Positions 7,276 through 12,719 of a stretch of DNA of 64,000 bases are shown here, one piece after another; position 1 is the first letter of the stretch, and every line of letters starts with the position of its first letter. Below the pieces are notes generated by a model that was not told where the DNA came from, made no database searches, and saw nothing but the letters and a program-made list of their open reading frames with translations. A program made the translations under genes and the position numbers. This DNA comes from Chloroflexota bacterium (GTDB lineage Bacteria > Chloroflexota > UBA11872), in NCBI GenBank assembly GCA_028873795.1, contig JAPPNP010000005.1, positions 1 to 64,000 of the forward strand. The letters run 5' to 3'.

Positions 7276-7980
7276 CTATCCCGCGTCGCGCATGATCGGC
7301 CACCGGTGGCGCCGAGCGATCTGATGCAGCCGCTCGTTCGGCCACACGGCCACCGGGCGCCCCACGAGTTGCAGCAGGTCCAGATCGCGCTCGGTGTCGG
7401 CGTAGGCCACGCTGCGCGTGAGGTCGATGGGCGGATCGGCGCCCTCCGCCATGGACATCACGCGCCGCACTTTCTCCGGGCCCGTCACCGTTTCGCCGAG
7501 CACCCGACCCGTCACCCGACCCTCAACCACTTCGACCCGCGTGCCGATCACCACGTCGAATCCCAGCGCCTCCTGCACCGGCTGCAAGAACGGCTCATAG
7601 GTGGCGGATACCAGGGCGGTGCAATGGCCGTCCGACTTGCTGCGCCGCACCACGTCCGCCACCTGCTCCCGCATGGACGGGCGAAAGATGAATTCCCACG
7701 CATGCTCCACGAGGGCCGCGAGCTCCCGCTCGTCCATGCCGCGCACCGTCGCCCACGCGGCCGGCATCCACCGGCGCACCATGAAATCCGCGCTCACGAC
7801 GCCGACCTTGCTTGCGAGGATGACCGGCAGTTGACGCAGGATCATCATCGTCTTGCGGCGCTTCCATTGGCTGCGTCCGCCCATCCAGGACTCGATGGCC
7901 TGCCACACCTCGCCCGTGACGAGGGTGCCGTTGAAGTCGAAGATCGCGGCGGATTGGGTGGCTGGAGCTTGGCCTGGCAT
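7276..7980 (-). CDS. HAD-like hydrolase (IB/SerB-like) with DxN motif I
   Basis: A 234-aa HAD-superfamily protein. Motif I reads DFNGTLV at residues 15-21, so the first Asp (nucleophile) is kept but the second Asp, the usual acid/base, is Asn 17. Motif II is a VSATYEPF Ser, and motif III is the YADTERDLDLL region near the C-terminus. The overall plan (helical cap between motifs I and II) is that of phosphoserine-phosphatase-like IB enzymes. Start ATG 7980 is chosen because the fold begins ten residues later. It lies upstream of coaE in one transcription unit and is divergent from ribD. The substrate is unknown, and the Asn may reduce or redirect phosphatase activity. Confidence 0.8.
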   Translation of the reverse strand: MPGQAPATQSAAIFDFNGTLVTGEVWQAIESWMGGRSQWKRRKTMMILRQLPVILASKVGVVSADFMVRRWMPAAWATVRGMDERELAALVEHAWEFIFRPSMREQVADVVRRSKSDGHCTALVSATYEPFLQPVQEALGFDVVIGTRVEVVEGRVTGRVLGETVTGPEKVRRVMSMAEGADPPIDLTRSVAYADTERDLDLLQLVGRPVAVWPNERLHQIARRHRWPIMRDAG

Positions 7981-8079
7981 CGATTTGGTGCGGTCCTGGG
8001 GAGACGCAGCGGCAATGTCCCACACGAGCAACGGCCGAGCACGTGTCCAAATTCACCGTCAGCCCCGGTCTATAGTTGA

Positions 8080-8196: not shown

Positions 8197-9333
8197 GTGA
8201 CCACGACGCCCATCGACACGGTGCCCGCGACTGACCGGCAGACCCTGGCGCGCGCCATGCATCGGGCCGTCGATCTGGCGCGCGCCGTGCGCGGCCGCAC
8301 CAGCCCCCTCCCACCGGTCGGCGCCGTGGTGCTGCAGGGCGACCGCGTGGCCGGCGAGGGAGCCACGGACCCGCCCGGCGGACCGCACGCCGAGGTCAAC
8401 GCACTCGCCGCGGCGCGGGAGCAGGCCCGGGGCGGCACTCTCGTCGTGACGCTGGAGCCCTGCAATCACATGGGGCGAACCCCTCCCTGCACGCAGGCCA
8501 TTCAGCGTGCGGGCATCGCCCTCGTGGTCGTTGGTACGCGCGATCCCAACCCACACGTATCGGGAAGCGGCCTGGAGACGCTGGCTGCCGGCGGCATTGC
8601 CACGGAGGTCGGTCTGCTCGACCGTGAGGCGGACGCGCTCATTGCGCCGTTCACCACCCTGGTCACGCGCGGCCGCCCGTTCGTCACGGCAAAATGGGCA
8701 ATGACGCTCGACGGCAAGATCGCCGGCCCTCGCGGCGGCGAACCGATTTCCGGCGCCGAGGCCAGGGCCGAGGCGCACCGCCTGCGGGACCGCGTGGACG
8801 CGGTCGTGGTCGGATCGGCCACCGCGCGCATCGACGATCCGCGGCTCACCGTGCGACCCGCGCCGGACGATGGACGTCAACCGCTGCGCGTGGTGATGGA
8901 TTCGGCGGCGTCGCTGGCGTCGGATGCGCGCATGCTCGGTGAGCCGGGCTCGACTCTGGTCATGACGGCGCGCGAATCTGCCGCCGACCGCGCTCGACTT
9001 GAACGGGCCGGCGCCGAGGTCGTGCGCGTGGCCGGCGGACCCGACGGCCGGATAGACCTGGCTGATGCGCTGGCGCACCTCGGCGCCCGTGGCCTGGCCC
9101 ACGTGCTCGTCGAGGGCGGGTCCCGGCTGCTCGGCGCGCTGCTTGCGGCCGACCTCGTCGACGAGGCGGTGGTGTTCATCGCGCCGCGCGTCATGGGTCC
9201 GGGCGTCCCCGCGTTGGATCCCCCACCCGAAGCCGGCCGCTTCCTCCCCTGGACGCTCGACGAGCCCGACGTGCGTCGACTTGGTCCCGACATCATGATT
9301 CGGGGCCGTCGACCGACGGCTCAGGTCGGCTAG
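8197..9333 (+). CDS. ribD: Bifunctional riboflavin deaminase/reductase
   Basis: A 378-aa enzyme with two activities: deamination of the pyrimidine product of GTP cyclohydrolase II, then reduction of the ribosyl group. The N-terminal zinc deaminase carries HAE at residue 64 onward and PCNHMGRTPPC (Cys 89 and Cys 98). The C-terminal reductase domain starts near 165 with FVTAKWAMTLDGKIAG and ends with a VEGGSRLLGALL strand region. GTG 8197 is the start, with the leader immediately upstream. It is the first gene of ribD-ribE-ribBA-ribH, with three bases before ribE. Confidence 0.96.
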   Translation: MTTTPIDTVPATDRQTLARAMHRAVDLARAVRGRTSPLPPVGAVVLQGDRVAGEGATDPPGGPHAEVNALAAAREQARGGTLVVTLEPCNHMGRTPPCTQAIQRAGIALVVVGTRDPNPHVSGSGLETLAAGGIATEVGLLDREADALIAPFTTLVTRGRPFVTAKWAMTLDGKIAGPRGGEPISGAEARAEAHRLRDRVDAVVVGSATARIDDPRLTVRPAPDDGRQPLRVVMDSAASLASDARMLGEPGSTLVMTARESAADRARLERAGAEVVRVAGGPDGRIDLADALAHLGARGLAHVLVEGGSRLLGALLAADLVDEAVVFIAPRVMGPGVPALDPPPEAGRFLPWTLDEPDVRRLGPDIMIRGRRPTAQVG

Positions 9334-9336
9334 ACC

Positions 9337-9996
9337 ATGTTCACCGGCATCGTCGAGGCGATGGGTGAAGTGGTGGAGATTGACTCCAGCGGATCCGCGC
9401 ACCGCCTCACTGTCGCCGCGCCGGTGCTCGCAGACGGCGTGGCAGTCGGCGATAGCGTCGCCGTCAACGGCGTCTGTCTCACGGCGGTGCGGATCGAGGA
9501 CGATCGCATGACCGTCGAGGTCGTGCCGGAAACGCTCCGCCGCACCAACCTGGGCTCTCTCGAGATCGGCGGCGCCGTGAACGTCGAGCGATCGCTGCCG
9601 GCCGACGGCCGCTTCGGCGGACACGTCGTACAGGGTCACGTGGATAGCACCTGCACCGTCCACAAGCGCGAACCGGACGGCGCCGGCGAGATGGTGACCT
9701 TCACGCTGCCGCCCGAGCACGCCGCCCATGTCGTTTCCAAGGGATTTGTCGCCCTCGACGGCGTAAGCCTCACCGTGGTCGACGCGTCCGCCGACGAATT
9801 CCGCGTGGCGCTGATTCCCCACACCCGCGCGCTGGTGACGCTTGGCTCCGCCGCGGTCGGATATCGCGCTAACCTCGAGGTGGACGTGCTGGCCAAGTAC
9901 GTCGCGCGGGCCATGACCGTGATGCCGCGCGAGACCGCGCTCAGCCGCGCGCAGCTCCAGGCATCGGGGCTTCTGGACGTGGAGACGGAGGAATGA
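9337..9996 (+). CDS. ribE: Riboflavin synthase alpha chain
   Basis: A 219-aa riboflavin synthase that dismutates two 6,7-dimethyl-8-ribityllumazines to riboflavin. The family-specific N-terminus MFTGIVEAMG is present, and two internally similar lumazine-binding halves can be seen (about 1-97 and 98-200, the second starting GGHVVQGHVDSTCTV). The gene overlaps ribBA by four bases (ATGA) with a GGAGG ribosome site just before. Confidence 0.96.
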   Translation: MFTGIVEAMGEVVEIDSSGSAHRLTVAAPVLADGVAVGDSVAVNGVCLTAVRIEDDRMTVEVVPETLRRTNLGSLEIGGAVNVERSLPADGRFGGHVVQGHVDSTCTVHKREPDGAGEMVTFTLPPEHAAHVVSKGFVALDGVSLTVVDASADEFRVALIPHTRALVTLGSAAVGYRANLEVDVLAKYVARAMTVMPRETALSRAQLQASGLLDVETEE

Positions 9997-11192
9997 CCGG
10001 GACCGAGATCGAGGCCGCAATCAGCCACATTGCCGCGGGCGGCATCGTGGCGGTGATCGACGACGGCCGCGATCCGCCCGACGTGGATCTCGTCACCGCC
10101 GGCTCGACCCTCACCGAGACGACCCTTGCCGAAATGCGCGCCCTGACCACCGGCCAACTCCACGTCCCCGTGGCGCCGGAGCGGCTCGATGCGCTGGGCA
10201 TCCCGCTCATGATGGAGTCGCAGGTCAACCACGGCGCGCGCCTGGTCGCGTTCACCGTCACCGTTGACCTGGTCGACCAGCCGCCGCAGCCAGGCTCGTT
10301 GCAGGGTGTGGCCGGCACCATCCGCGCCCTGGCCGATCCAGCGCGCGACGCCGCGGCGTTTCGCCAGCCGGGTCACGTGGCGCCGCTGCGCGGGCGCAGC
10401 GGTGGCGTGCTCCGTCGCTTTGGCCACACCGAGGCCGCCATCGACCTGGCGCGCCTGGCCTCGCTGCCGCCCGTCGCCGTGCTAACCGCGCTGCACACAC
10501 CCGAGGGCCGCGCCGCCCGTCCGGCGGATGCCCTCGAGCTCCTCGACGGCCGCGACATCCCGTCGATCGCCATCAGCGAGATCGTGCGCTACCGCCGGCT
10601 CAATGAGCGCGTCGTGATTCGCGGCGCGGAAGCCTCGCTGCCGATGGTCGCCGGGACGTTTCGAGCGATCGCCTTCCGCGATACCACCACGAACGAAGAC
10701 CATGTGGCGCTCGTGAAGGGCTCGGTCGCCGGCGGAAGCCCGCCGCTGGTGCGGGTGCACTCCGAGTGCCTCACCGGCGACGCGTTTGGCTCGCTGCGCT
10801 GCGACTGCGGCGACCAGCTAGAGGCCGCGACGCGGCGCATCGAGGCCGAAGGCCGCGGCGTCGTGCTCTACATGCGCCAGGAGGGACGGGGCATCGGGCT
10901 CGCCAACAAGCTCCACGCCTATCAGCTGCAGGACGACGGCCTCGACACCGTCGAGGCCAACCGCCATCTCGGCTTCGCCGTCGACCTGCGCGACTACGGC
11001 GTGGGCGCCCAGATCCTGCGCGATCTCGGCCTGCGGGAGCTGCGGCTGCTCACCAACAACCCCAAGAAGACCGAAGGCTTCCGCGCCTACGGACTGCACG
11101 TCGTCGAGCAGATTCCCCTCACCGTCCAGCCGGGGGAGCATAATCAGCGGTACCTGGAGACCAAGCGACAGCGAATGGGCCATGGCGTCTAA
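9993..11192 (+). CDS. ribBA: RibBA-type fusion: intact GTP cyclohydrolase II, degenerate RibB half
   Basis: A 399-aa protein with the RibB (DHBP synthase) and RibA (GTP cyclohydrolase II) layout. The RibA half is intact: zinc ligands Cys 259, Cys 270 and Cys 272 (CLTGDAFGSLRCDC), then RQEGRGIGL and LTNNPKK. In the N-terminal half, family RibB enzymes have a DDEDRENEGDL loop, but here residues 23-33 read DDGRDPPDVDL. The later ISAxDR segment and the CEIMNEDG-like strand are also changed, while PGHVAPLRGR and GHTEAAIDLARLA are retained. The enzyme can probably make the GTP-derived pyrimidine, whereas DHBP synthesis by this half is doubtful. It overlaps ribH by 11 bases. Confidence 0.9.
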   Translation: MTGTEIEAAISHIAAGGIVAVIDDGRDPPDVDLVTAGSTLTETTLAEMRALTTGQLHVPVAPERLDALGIPLMMESQVNHGARLVAFTVTVDLVDQPPQPGSLQGVAGTIRALADPARDAAAFRQPGHVAPLRGRSGGVLRRFGHTEAAIDLARLASLPPVAVLTALHTPEGRAARPADALELLDGRDIPSIAISEIVRYRRLNERVVIRGAEASLPMVAGTFRAIAFRDTTTNEDHVALVKGSVAGGSPPLVRVHSECLTGDAFGSLRCDCGDQLEAATRRIEAEGRGVVLYMRQEGRGIGLANKLHAYQLQDDGLDTVEANRHLGFAVDLRDYGVGAQILRDLGLRELRLLTNNPKKTEGFRAYGLHVVEQIPLTVQPGEHNQRYLETKRQRMGHGV

Positions 11193-11712
11193 TCAAGAAC
11201 CGTCGCCGACCGACGGCGAGGTCATCGAGCCGCGGCTCGACGGCGCCGGGCTTTCGGTGGGCATCGTCGCCGCGCGATTCAACGAGTTTTTCACCACGCA
11301 CCTGCTCCGCGCCTGTCGGCGTGAACTCCGCCGGCACGGCGTCGCCGACGAGGACGTCATCGTCGCCTGGGTGCCGGGAGCCATGGAGCTGCCGATCACG
11401 GCGCGCGAACTCATCGCCTCCCGCGACGTGGACGTCGTGGTCTGCCTGGGATGCATCGTTCGCGGTGAGACCACCCACTACGACCACGTGGCCCAGGAAT
11501 CGGCCCGGGGCATCGCCCGCGCCGCGCTGGATACGGGAACGCCCGTGATCTACGGCGTCGTGACGGCCGAGACGCTGGCGCACGCGGTGGATCGGAGTGG
11601 ATCGCGCGCCGGCAATCGCGGCGGTGACGCGGCGCTGGCCGCCATCGAGATGGCGCGCGTGCTGGCCGAGGTTCGCCAGGGCCGTCCGGTGGTTCCCGCC
11701 GCCGAGCTATGA
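11182..11712 (+). CDS. ribH: 6,7-dimethyl-8-ribityllumazine synthase
   Basis: A 176-aa lumazine synthase joining DHBP with the pyrimidine amine. Family signatures are RFNEFF near the N-terminus, VPGAMELP at about 63, CLGCIVRGETTHYDHV, VIYGVVTAETL and the basic GNRGGDAALAAIEMA segment. It has an N-terminal extension of about 25 charged residues. Overlap with ribBA upstream and ATGA overlap with the DUF3500 gene downstream show tight coupling. Confidence 0.95.
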   Translation: MASNQEPSPTDGEVIEPRLDGAGLSVGIVAARFNEFFTTHLLRACRRELRRHGVADEDVIVAWVPGAMELPITARELIASRDVDVVVCLGCIVRGETTHYDHVAQESARGIARAALDTGTPVIYGVVTAETLAHAVDRSGSRAGNRGGDAALAAIEMARVLAEVRQGRPVVPAAEL

Positions 11713-12719
11713 CCGCGTCGGCGGTCACGTCGTTCGCGCCCCAGGCGGCGTCGGTGATGACGGCGGCGGCCCGGGACTTTCTGGCATCGCTCGACGTCTC
11801 GCAGCGAGCGCTGGCGATGTTCCCCTTCGTCGGCGACGAACGCTTTGTCTGGCATTACACGCCGGTGCCGCGGCGCGGCCTATCGCTCAATGCCATGCAA
11901 CCCGATCAGCGGACCGCGGCCCTGGACCTGGTGGCCACGGGGCTGAGCCCGCGCGGCTGGCGCCAAGCACAGCAGATCATGGCGCTCGAAACCATCCTCG
12001 ACGAGTGGGAACGCATACAGGGCCTACACGTGCGGTGGCTCCGCGACCCCGAGGAATACCACCTCAGCGTGTTCGGCCAACCCGGCGACGACCGCTGGGC
12101 CTGGCGCGTGTGCGGCCATCACCTCCTGACCCACATCACCGTGGCGGCGCAAGCGCACCTGGCGTGCGTGCCGCTGTTCTTCGGCGCCAATCCGGCCGAG
12201 GTGCGCCACGGCCCCGAGAAGGGTCTGCGCATCCTTTCGGTGGAGGAAGACCTGGCGCGCGGCTTGCTCGGGCAGCTCACGCCCGACCAGCGCCGCGTCG
12301 CCATCGTCGACCCGCAGGCGCCCGACGACATCCTCACCAAGAACTATCGCGCCATTCAGCCCGGCATGGCGCCCCAAGGCCTTGCGTTGGGCGACATGGC
12401 GCAGGCGTCGCGCGAGCAGCTGGTGCGGCTCATCCGGCACTACGTCGACCGCTCCGCCGGCGAGATGGCCGCCAACGCCTGGCGCGACATCGAGCACGCC
12501 GGCCTGGACCCCGTCACCTTCGCCTGGGCCGGTCCCCAGGAGCCGGGGCACGGCCACTACTACGCCGTCGTCGGATCATCGTTCCTGATCGAATACGACA
12601 ACACCCAGGACGGCGCGAACCACGTTCACTCGGTGTGGCGCGACTTCACCAACGACTTTGGCGGCGACGTGCTGGCCGAGCACTACGCCGAGTCCGCCCA
12701 CCACCACGACCACGAGTAG
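11709..12719 (+). CDS. DUF3500 family protein
   Basis: A 336-aa protein of the DUF3500 family, function unknown. Visible features are a tryptophan-containing YTPVPRRGLSLN segment near residue 50, a GHHLLTHITV segment near 137-146, an FFGANPAEV segment, a GHGHYYAVV strand, a conserved IEYDNTQDGANHVHSVWRD region, and a His-rich tail (AHHHDHE). The repeated His and acidic residues could bind metal, but this is not shown. Its start codon overlaps the ribH stop (ATGA), tying expression to flavin synthesis, which may be operon convenience or a real link. It converges with the gamma-glutamyltransferase gene (3 bases apart). Confidence 0.8.
   Translation: MTASAVTSFAPQAASVMTAAARDFLASLDVSQRALAMFPFVGDERFVWHYTPVPRRGLSLNAMQPDQRTAALDLVATGLSPRGWRQAQQIMALETILDEWERIQGLHVRWLRDPEEYHLSVFGQPGDDRWAWRVCGHHLLTHITVAAQAHLACVPLFFGANPAEVRHGPEKGLRILSVEEDLARGLLGQLTPDQRRVAIVDPQAPDDILTKNYRAIQPGMAPQGLALGDMAQASREQLVRLIRHYVDRSAGEMAANAWRDIEHAGLDPVTFAWAGPQEPGHGHYYAVVGSSFLIEYDNTQDGANHVHSVWRDFTNDFGGDVLAEHYAESAHHHDHE

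Follow-up and report, generated by a model that had tools for sequence, protein, structure and literature searches.

DHBP synthase (RibB), a possible drug target under discussion, is regarded as the sole route to one riboflavin precursor. Its active-site residues are numbered here as in the Vibrio cholerae enzyme, in which the catalytic loop runs from D34 to D43. The sections of one study that deal with this site describe E39 mutants of both M. jannaschii and V. cholerae as inactive and the M. jannaschii variants T108S and D114S as less active; they also place D43 in a bond with O3 of ribulose 5-phosphate and in contact with H154, which serves as a ligand of the metal (PMC5228156). Among plant RibBA proteins, RIBA3 has been shown, in the part of the work that describes it, to keep only GTP cyclohydrolase II (GCHII) activity (PMC3509567). 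Deletion mutants of ribBA in Sinorhizobium meliloti and B. abortus are prototrophic, and in the passages concerned with these mutants a further enzyme, RibB2, is postulated that the authors did not find (PMC9478397). For sponge SAR202 Chloroflexi, which may or may not belong to the order studied here, GTP and ribulose 5-phosphate are described as the starting compounds of a riboflavin pathway attributed to them, in the portion of their description that bears on it (PMC6306507). No earlier report of the degenerate RibB pattern set out below was found in the open literature searched.

The window, a stretch of 64,000 nucleotides from the genome of a Chloroflexota bacterium, carries riboflavin genes in the order ribD-ribE-ribBA-ribH (Table 1). 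The ribBA gene overlaps ribE by 4 bases and ribH by 11 bases. No FMN riboswitch or other Rfam family was detected in the window at gathering score. The genome belongs to an order represented by 24 genomes, comprising family f1 (six genomes of genus g1, including that of the window, and 13 of genus g2) and family f2 (g3, two genomes of g4, g5 and g6). A DUF3500 protein (273 bits; window 11709-12719, plus strand) overlaps ribH by 4 bases; its cluster follows ribH in the g1 loci only and is absent there in g2 and f2. In g1 genomes the gene between coaE and ribD (window 7276-8031, minus strand) is one which, from its sequence, we take to be HAD-like, and it might be a riboflavin-pathway phosphatase. 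A different HAD-like ORF is located after ribH in f2 genomes.

Table 1. Riboflavin genes of the window and the segments of ribBA discussed in the text
Feature	Position	Strand	Remarks
ribD, deaminase/reductase	8197..9333	+	PF00383, PF01872; TIGR00326 294 bits
ribE, riboflavin synthase	9337..9996	+	PF00677; NF006767 218 bits
ribBA, 399 aa, non-canonical RibB half and complete GTP cyclohydrolase II	9993..11192	+	
RibB (DHBP synthase) half	10011..10592	+	PF00926
Former acidic loop DDEDRENEGDL, now DDGRDPPDVDL, residues 23-33	10059..10091	+	
Loop-4 segment SLQGV instead of SAxDR	10296..10310	+	D114->G105, R115->V106
GHTEA retained	10422..10436	+	H154 = H145, then T155, E156
TALH instead of CEIM/CELT	10485..10496	+	E175->A166
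RibA (GTP cyclohydrolase II) half, complete	10626..11117	+	zinc cysteines C259, C270, C272
ribH, lumazine synthase	11182..11712	+	PF00885 171.5 bits

The two halves of the RibBA protein differ in how well they satisfy the models of their families. The RibA half (residues 212-375) matches PF00925 with 243.9 bits and exceeds the cut-off of the RibA equivalog TIGR00505 (257.7 bits against 205.85). Its three zinc cysteines are invariant across 58 RibBA rows and it aligns end to end with the Escherichia coli GCHII 2bz0, in agreement with the initial description of this half as complete. The RibB half (residues 7-200) matches PF00926 with 145.8 bits, or 148.1 in the genome search, against a cut-off of 26.4; the intact RibBA proteins of class-mates score 278-298 bits, with the exception of a split gene in G028. 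Both the RibB equivalog TIGR00506 (121.7 bits against a cut-off of 177.45) and the bifunctional RibBA equivalog PRK09311 (462.2 against 569) are missed. The AlphaFold model of the protein has a pLDDT of 90.2 and finds its best PDB match in the RibBA structure 4i14 (E 2.1e-36). Foldseek comparison of the model with single-domain RibB structures gave TM scores (target) of 0.79-0.91. Retention of the RibB fold by this half is thus predicted from the model, and the stretch GHTEAAIDLARLA, previously singled out as fold-typical, is found within it.

What has changed is the active site. An intact reference set of 40 RibB rows, drawn from relatives, standalone RibBs and V. cholerae, has R38, E39, E41, D43, R115, H137, R151, T155, E156 and E175 in all 40; at these positions the window reads D, P, D, D, V, H, R, T, E and A. 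Within the loop, R38, E39 and E41 are replaced by D27, P28 and D30, and D43 is retained as D32. Outside it T108 has become Gln and D114 Gly, and H154 is retained. The canonical residues R38, E39, T108, D114, R115 and E175 are therefore gone, and of the catalytic set E39/E41/D43/T108/H154/E175 only D43 and H154 remain. The sequence-only reading had held that the catalytic loop was lost and that the ISAxDR and CEIM-type segments were absent; both losses are seen in the residues read at these places (DDGRDPPDVDL, SLQGV and TALH). To this can be added the conservative change of E41 to Asp and the retention of D43, R151, H154, T155 and E156. The window protein hence combines lost DHBP synthase residues with retained GCHII residues, as expected of a RIBA3-like protein.

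The same residues are missing throughout f1. None of the 19 f1 rows has R38, E39, E41 or E175, a single row has R115, and H137 is retained only in the six g1 rows. No common substitute has taken their place: E39 is replaced in the f1 rows by Pro (6), Gln (7), Arg (5) or Ile (1), and between members of the order by Pro, Gln, Arg, Ile or Ser, while E175 gives way to Ala, His or Arg, T108 mostly to Gln, Ala, Glu or Pro, and D114 mostly to Gly, Ala, Gln or Ser. H154 is Gln in 13 of the 40 intact rows, and a His at this position is thus not indispensable.

The sequence-only reading had suggested that the operon may lack DHBP synthase activity unless a second RibB exists elsewhere. In the window's own genome, which is 96.6% complete, there is one match to PF00926 and one to PF00925, both of them the window RibBA ORF, and a lax search with TIGR00506 returned only a chance match in an HD-domain ORF; no second RibB was found there. 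As to the suggestion as a whole, the motif loss, the complete RibA half and the missing second RibB all stand, whereas an absence of DHBP synthase activity may, but need not, follow from them.

Across the order, PF00926 is present in 23 of 24 genomes. The scores of the order's RibBA proteins all fall within 99-148 bits, and the RibB half is degenerate in all 23 genomes with RibBA. The remaining genome, G002, is without both PF00926 and PF00885. Standalone RibBs scoring 200-235 bits occur in G019 (g3), G021 (g5) and G022 (g6), each divergent beside moeA. This leaves 20 genomes (18 of f1 and the two of g4) with a degenerate RibBA and no other RibB, among them G006, which is a single contig; each of the 20 encodes RibH. 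In G018 (8% contamination) there are two RibBA, both of them degenerate. When 19 of the 24 genomes were searched with TIGR00506 at E values of up to 10, only chance matches were seen among the matches examined. Those of G000 and G003 were dismissed as they lie inside an HD-domain ORF of 162-166 aa, upstream of what we take, from its sequence, to be an scpA-like gene. The weak match of G004 agrees with these two in frame length and profile range, and that of G014 falls inside an ORF that presumably, judging by its sequence, encodes a 3-hydroxyacyl-CoA-dehydrogenase-like protein.

Beyond the order, a draw of 221 Chloroflexota genomes that are at least 85% complete contained PF00926 in 134. A sole, low-scoring RibB was found outside the order only in G147 and G235: the gene of G147 is frameshifted with a loop that reads intact, and that of G235, judged by its match coordinates (profile 1-60), is a contig-edge fragment. 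In G227 and G233 (loci L177 and L178; family f21) RibBA has degenerated independently and a high-scoring RibB is encoded elsewhere, which is the expected arrangement. Of 80 named loci, from 516 relatives found, five are degenerate, all of them in Chloroflexota MAGs matching the order. In two genomes of family f5, G037 (L011) and G034 (L015), an intact RibBA is immediately preceded by a separate RibB gene, also intact.

A tree of 28 taxa built from RibD, RibE, the RibA half and RibH places f1 and f2 as sister groups and resolves f2 as g3,(g5,(g6,g4)), with support of 75 for g6+g4 and of 100 for f1, f2 and g5+g6+g4. The occurrence of standalone RibB at the moeA site in g3, g5 and g6 points to its presence in the f2 ancestor and its loss in g4. 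On a fixed topology, the ratio of RibB-half to RibA-half rates is 6.7 on the order stem, 2.9 on the f1 stem, 3.0 on the g4 stem, 3.7 in g6, 2.8 in g5 and 4.7 in g3, against 0.87 in intact outgroups. It is proposed that RibB degeneration began in the stem of this uncultured Chloroflexota order. The dN/dS values of the RibB and RibA halves are 0.189 and 0.043 in g1, and 0.226 and 0.089 in g2; in genera with intact RibBA they are 0.054 and 0.044 (g8), and 0.056 and 0.124 (g9, three pairs only). In g1 and g2, ribD and ribE give 0.17-0.24 and ribH 0.08-0.09 (0.08 in the genus of the window). The RibB half is thus constrained about as strongly as two presumed-active enzymes, and the operon is not decaying.

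A comparison of lineages with and without a backup RibB, the former being g3, g5, g6, G227 and G233, bears on whether this constraint reflects catalysis. Sixty-nine columns are conserved in intact RibB, and 29 of these are retained both in f1 (in at least 90% of the 19 rows) and in g4. Only D43 and H154 (as His or Gln) are retained in f1 and g4 yet lost in all five backup lineages. In total, 35 columns are retained in f1 and 40 in g4, and 31, 40, 37, 36 and 28 in the backup lineages. As a control, other lineage pairs also have one to three private retained columns, so that two is not unusual as a count and only the identity of the residues is. At position 154 the f1 genome G013 has Leu; moreover, the contrast was noticed before being tested, and the five backup lineages may include two that go back to a single event. 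The contrast is a hint and not a proof. Taken with the purifying selection kept on RibH, RibE and RibD, the retention of D43 and H154 implies that the RibB half may have been remodelled, or that another enzyme makes DHBP.

It is probable that f1 and g4 make DHBP without a canonical RibB, by means of either a non-homologous synthase, such as the postulated RibB2, or a RibB that lacks the E39, E175 and loop-4 machinery. The explanation preferred here, if tentatively, is that the ribBA product would be a working GCHII fused to a RibB half which has ceased to be a DHBP synthase of the canonical two-metal type. That half would remain in frame chiefly as a folded pseudo-domain that probably forms dimers, and riboflavin would still be synthesised via RibA, RibD, RibH and RibE, with DHBP coming from an enzyme that escapes every RibB model. 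The sequences show the residue losses, their spread through the order, the lack of any further RibB-family match and an operon retained under purifying selection; a lack of canonical RibB activity, continued riboflavin synthesis and another source of DHBP are inferred. The pseudo-domain is favoured because the lost residues are the catalytic ones, without a new conserved set replacing them: residues that are costly to mutate are gone and variably replaced, the RibB half is accelerated, and no other RibB was found although RibH is retained. Plant RIBA3 and the prototrophic ribBA mutants of S. meliloti and B. abortus offer precedents. On the other hand, a purely structural domain does not predict that D43 and H154 should be retained in RibB-less lineages, the RibB half evolves no faster by dN/dS (0.19-0.23) than ribD and ribE do, and an enzyme is required that nobody has seen. 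These objections are the strength of the chief competitor, in which the RibB half has remained a DHBP synthase, its site composed of D43, H154, an acidic residue at position 41, R151, T155 and E156, and has abandoned E39, E175 and loop 4. Such a site would have decayed alongside a standalone RibB (g3, g5 and g6) and been kept without one (f1 and g4). No new enzyme is called for, the equality of dN/dS with ribD and ribE is accounted for, and two residues that touch each other are kept exactly where the backup is missing; furthermore, as g4 is nested in f2 (through the g6+g4 node), the backup lineages lost D43 and H154 more than once. Nevertheless, a remodelled site appears rather unlikely, since E39, T108, D114, R115 and E175 have gone and what stands in their place varies freely, the RibB half of g4 is no less accelerated than that of g5 or g6, and the contrast itself is weakened by its post hoc nature, by the private columns of other pairs and by the Leu of G013.

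It is more doubtful still that a canonical RibB was simply missed, on a plasmid or an unbinned contig, or that riboflavin or DHBP is taken up from neighbours. The named relatives are MAGs, and G002, with neither RibB nor RibH family matches, would fit this reading. However, RibB is absent from 20 of 20 f1 and g4 genomes with a degenerate RibBA, one of them a single contig, the operon genes are under purifying selection, and importers of the ECF (PF12822) and PnuC/RibM (PF04973) families are found in none of the 24 order genomes. A DXS-like carboligase could in principle form DHBP from pyruvate and glycolaldehyde phosphate, and a second DXS-like ORF is indeed present in 11 of 11 f1 genomes tested and in none of five f2 genomes. 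This paralogue, however, has neither the GDG...NDN thiamine-diphosphate motif nor the C-terminal domain, looks dead, and is absent in g4, which is also without RibB; as a source of DHBP it was rejected, and this route is highly improbable. The ORF, of 423-433 aa (L172:7909-9210, plus strand; L174:7284-8555; L175:7783-9084), reads as another conserved pseudo-enzyme. A full DXS match is missing in the f2 genomes G021 and G022 and was found in the other 14 tested.

Candidates for the DHBP-supplying enzyme of the preferred explanation were also sought by position. No replacement gene is conserved within the operon, and the flanks beyond ribD-ribE-ribBA-ribH vary among g1, g2 and f2 (compared without the RibBA locus of G021). 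Nor does the moeA site provide one: the three genomes with standalone RibB share moeA-ribB, and the other lineages carry unlike genes there. To judge by sequence, these are presumably an aminoglycoside-phosphotransferase-like and a thioredoxin-like ORF in g4, archease and rtcB in g1, and varied genes in g2. The creatininase family (BrbF relatives) is present in 24 of 24 genomes, with 4-7 copies in f1 and g4 and 1-2 in g3, g5 and g6; the latter genomes are smaller, so these counts support no inference.

For annotation, a ribBA gene called over the Pfam cut-off overstates the evidence for the ribulose 5-phosphate branch. A family without a canonical RibB in which ribD, ribE, ribA and ribH remain under selection is a natural test bed for a missing enzyme, which could be sought by its expected distribution among genomes, with f1 and g4 having it and g3, g5 and g6 lacking it. 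If the RibB half is functional, it can instead show how little of the active site suffices.

Among described proteins, M. tuberculosis RibA2, the RibBA of structure 4i14, has the same domain order, fold and complete RibA half, unlike the window protein in that the latter is without the RibB catalytic residues. RibBX (6mnz) we take to be the mirror case, its RibA-like half being the one considered inactive. This protein of A. baumannii, considered here together with the NCBIfam families PRK14019 and PRK12485, is likewise a two-domain Rib protein, described by its depositors as a DHBP synthase. The comparison with plant RIBA paralogues made at the outset is apt: as far as the description of RIBA3 as a GCHII-only RibBA extends, the two have in common a bipartite protein, the loss of DHBP synthase residues and the retention of GCHII (PMC3509567). 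Unlike plants, which retain a bifunctional RIBA1, no other RibB was found here. With the postulated RibB2 of Sinorhizobium and Brucella, as presented in the sections on the mutants, f1 and g4 would share riboflavin synthesis without the known RibB, and the question posed here thus bears on the undiscovered RibB2 of S. meliloti; there the evidence comes from prototrophic deletion mutants, whereas here it comes from genomes in which RibB is naturally degenerate (PMC9478397).
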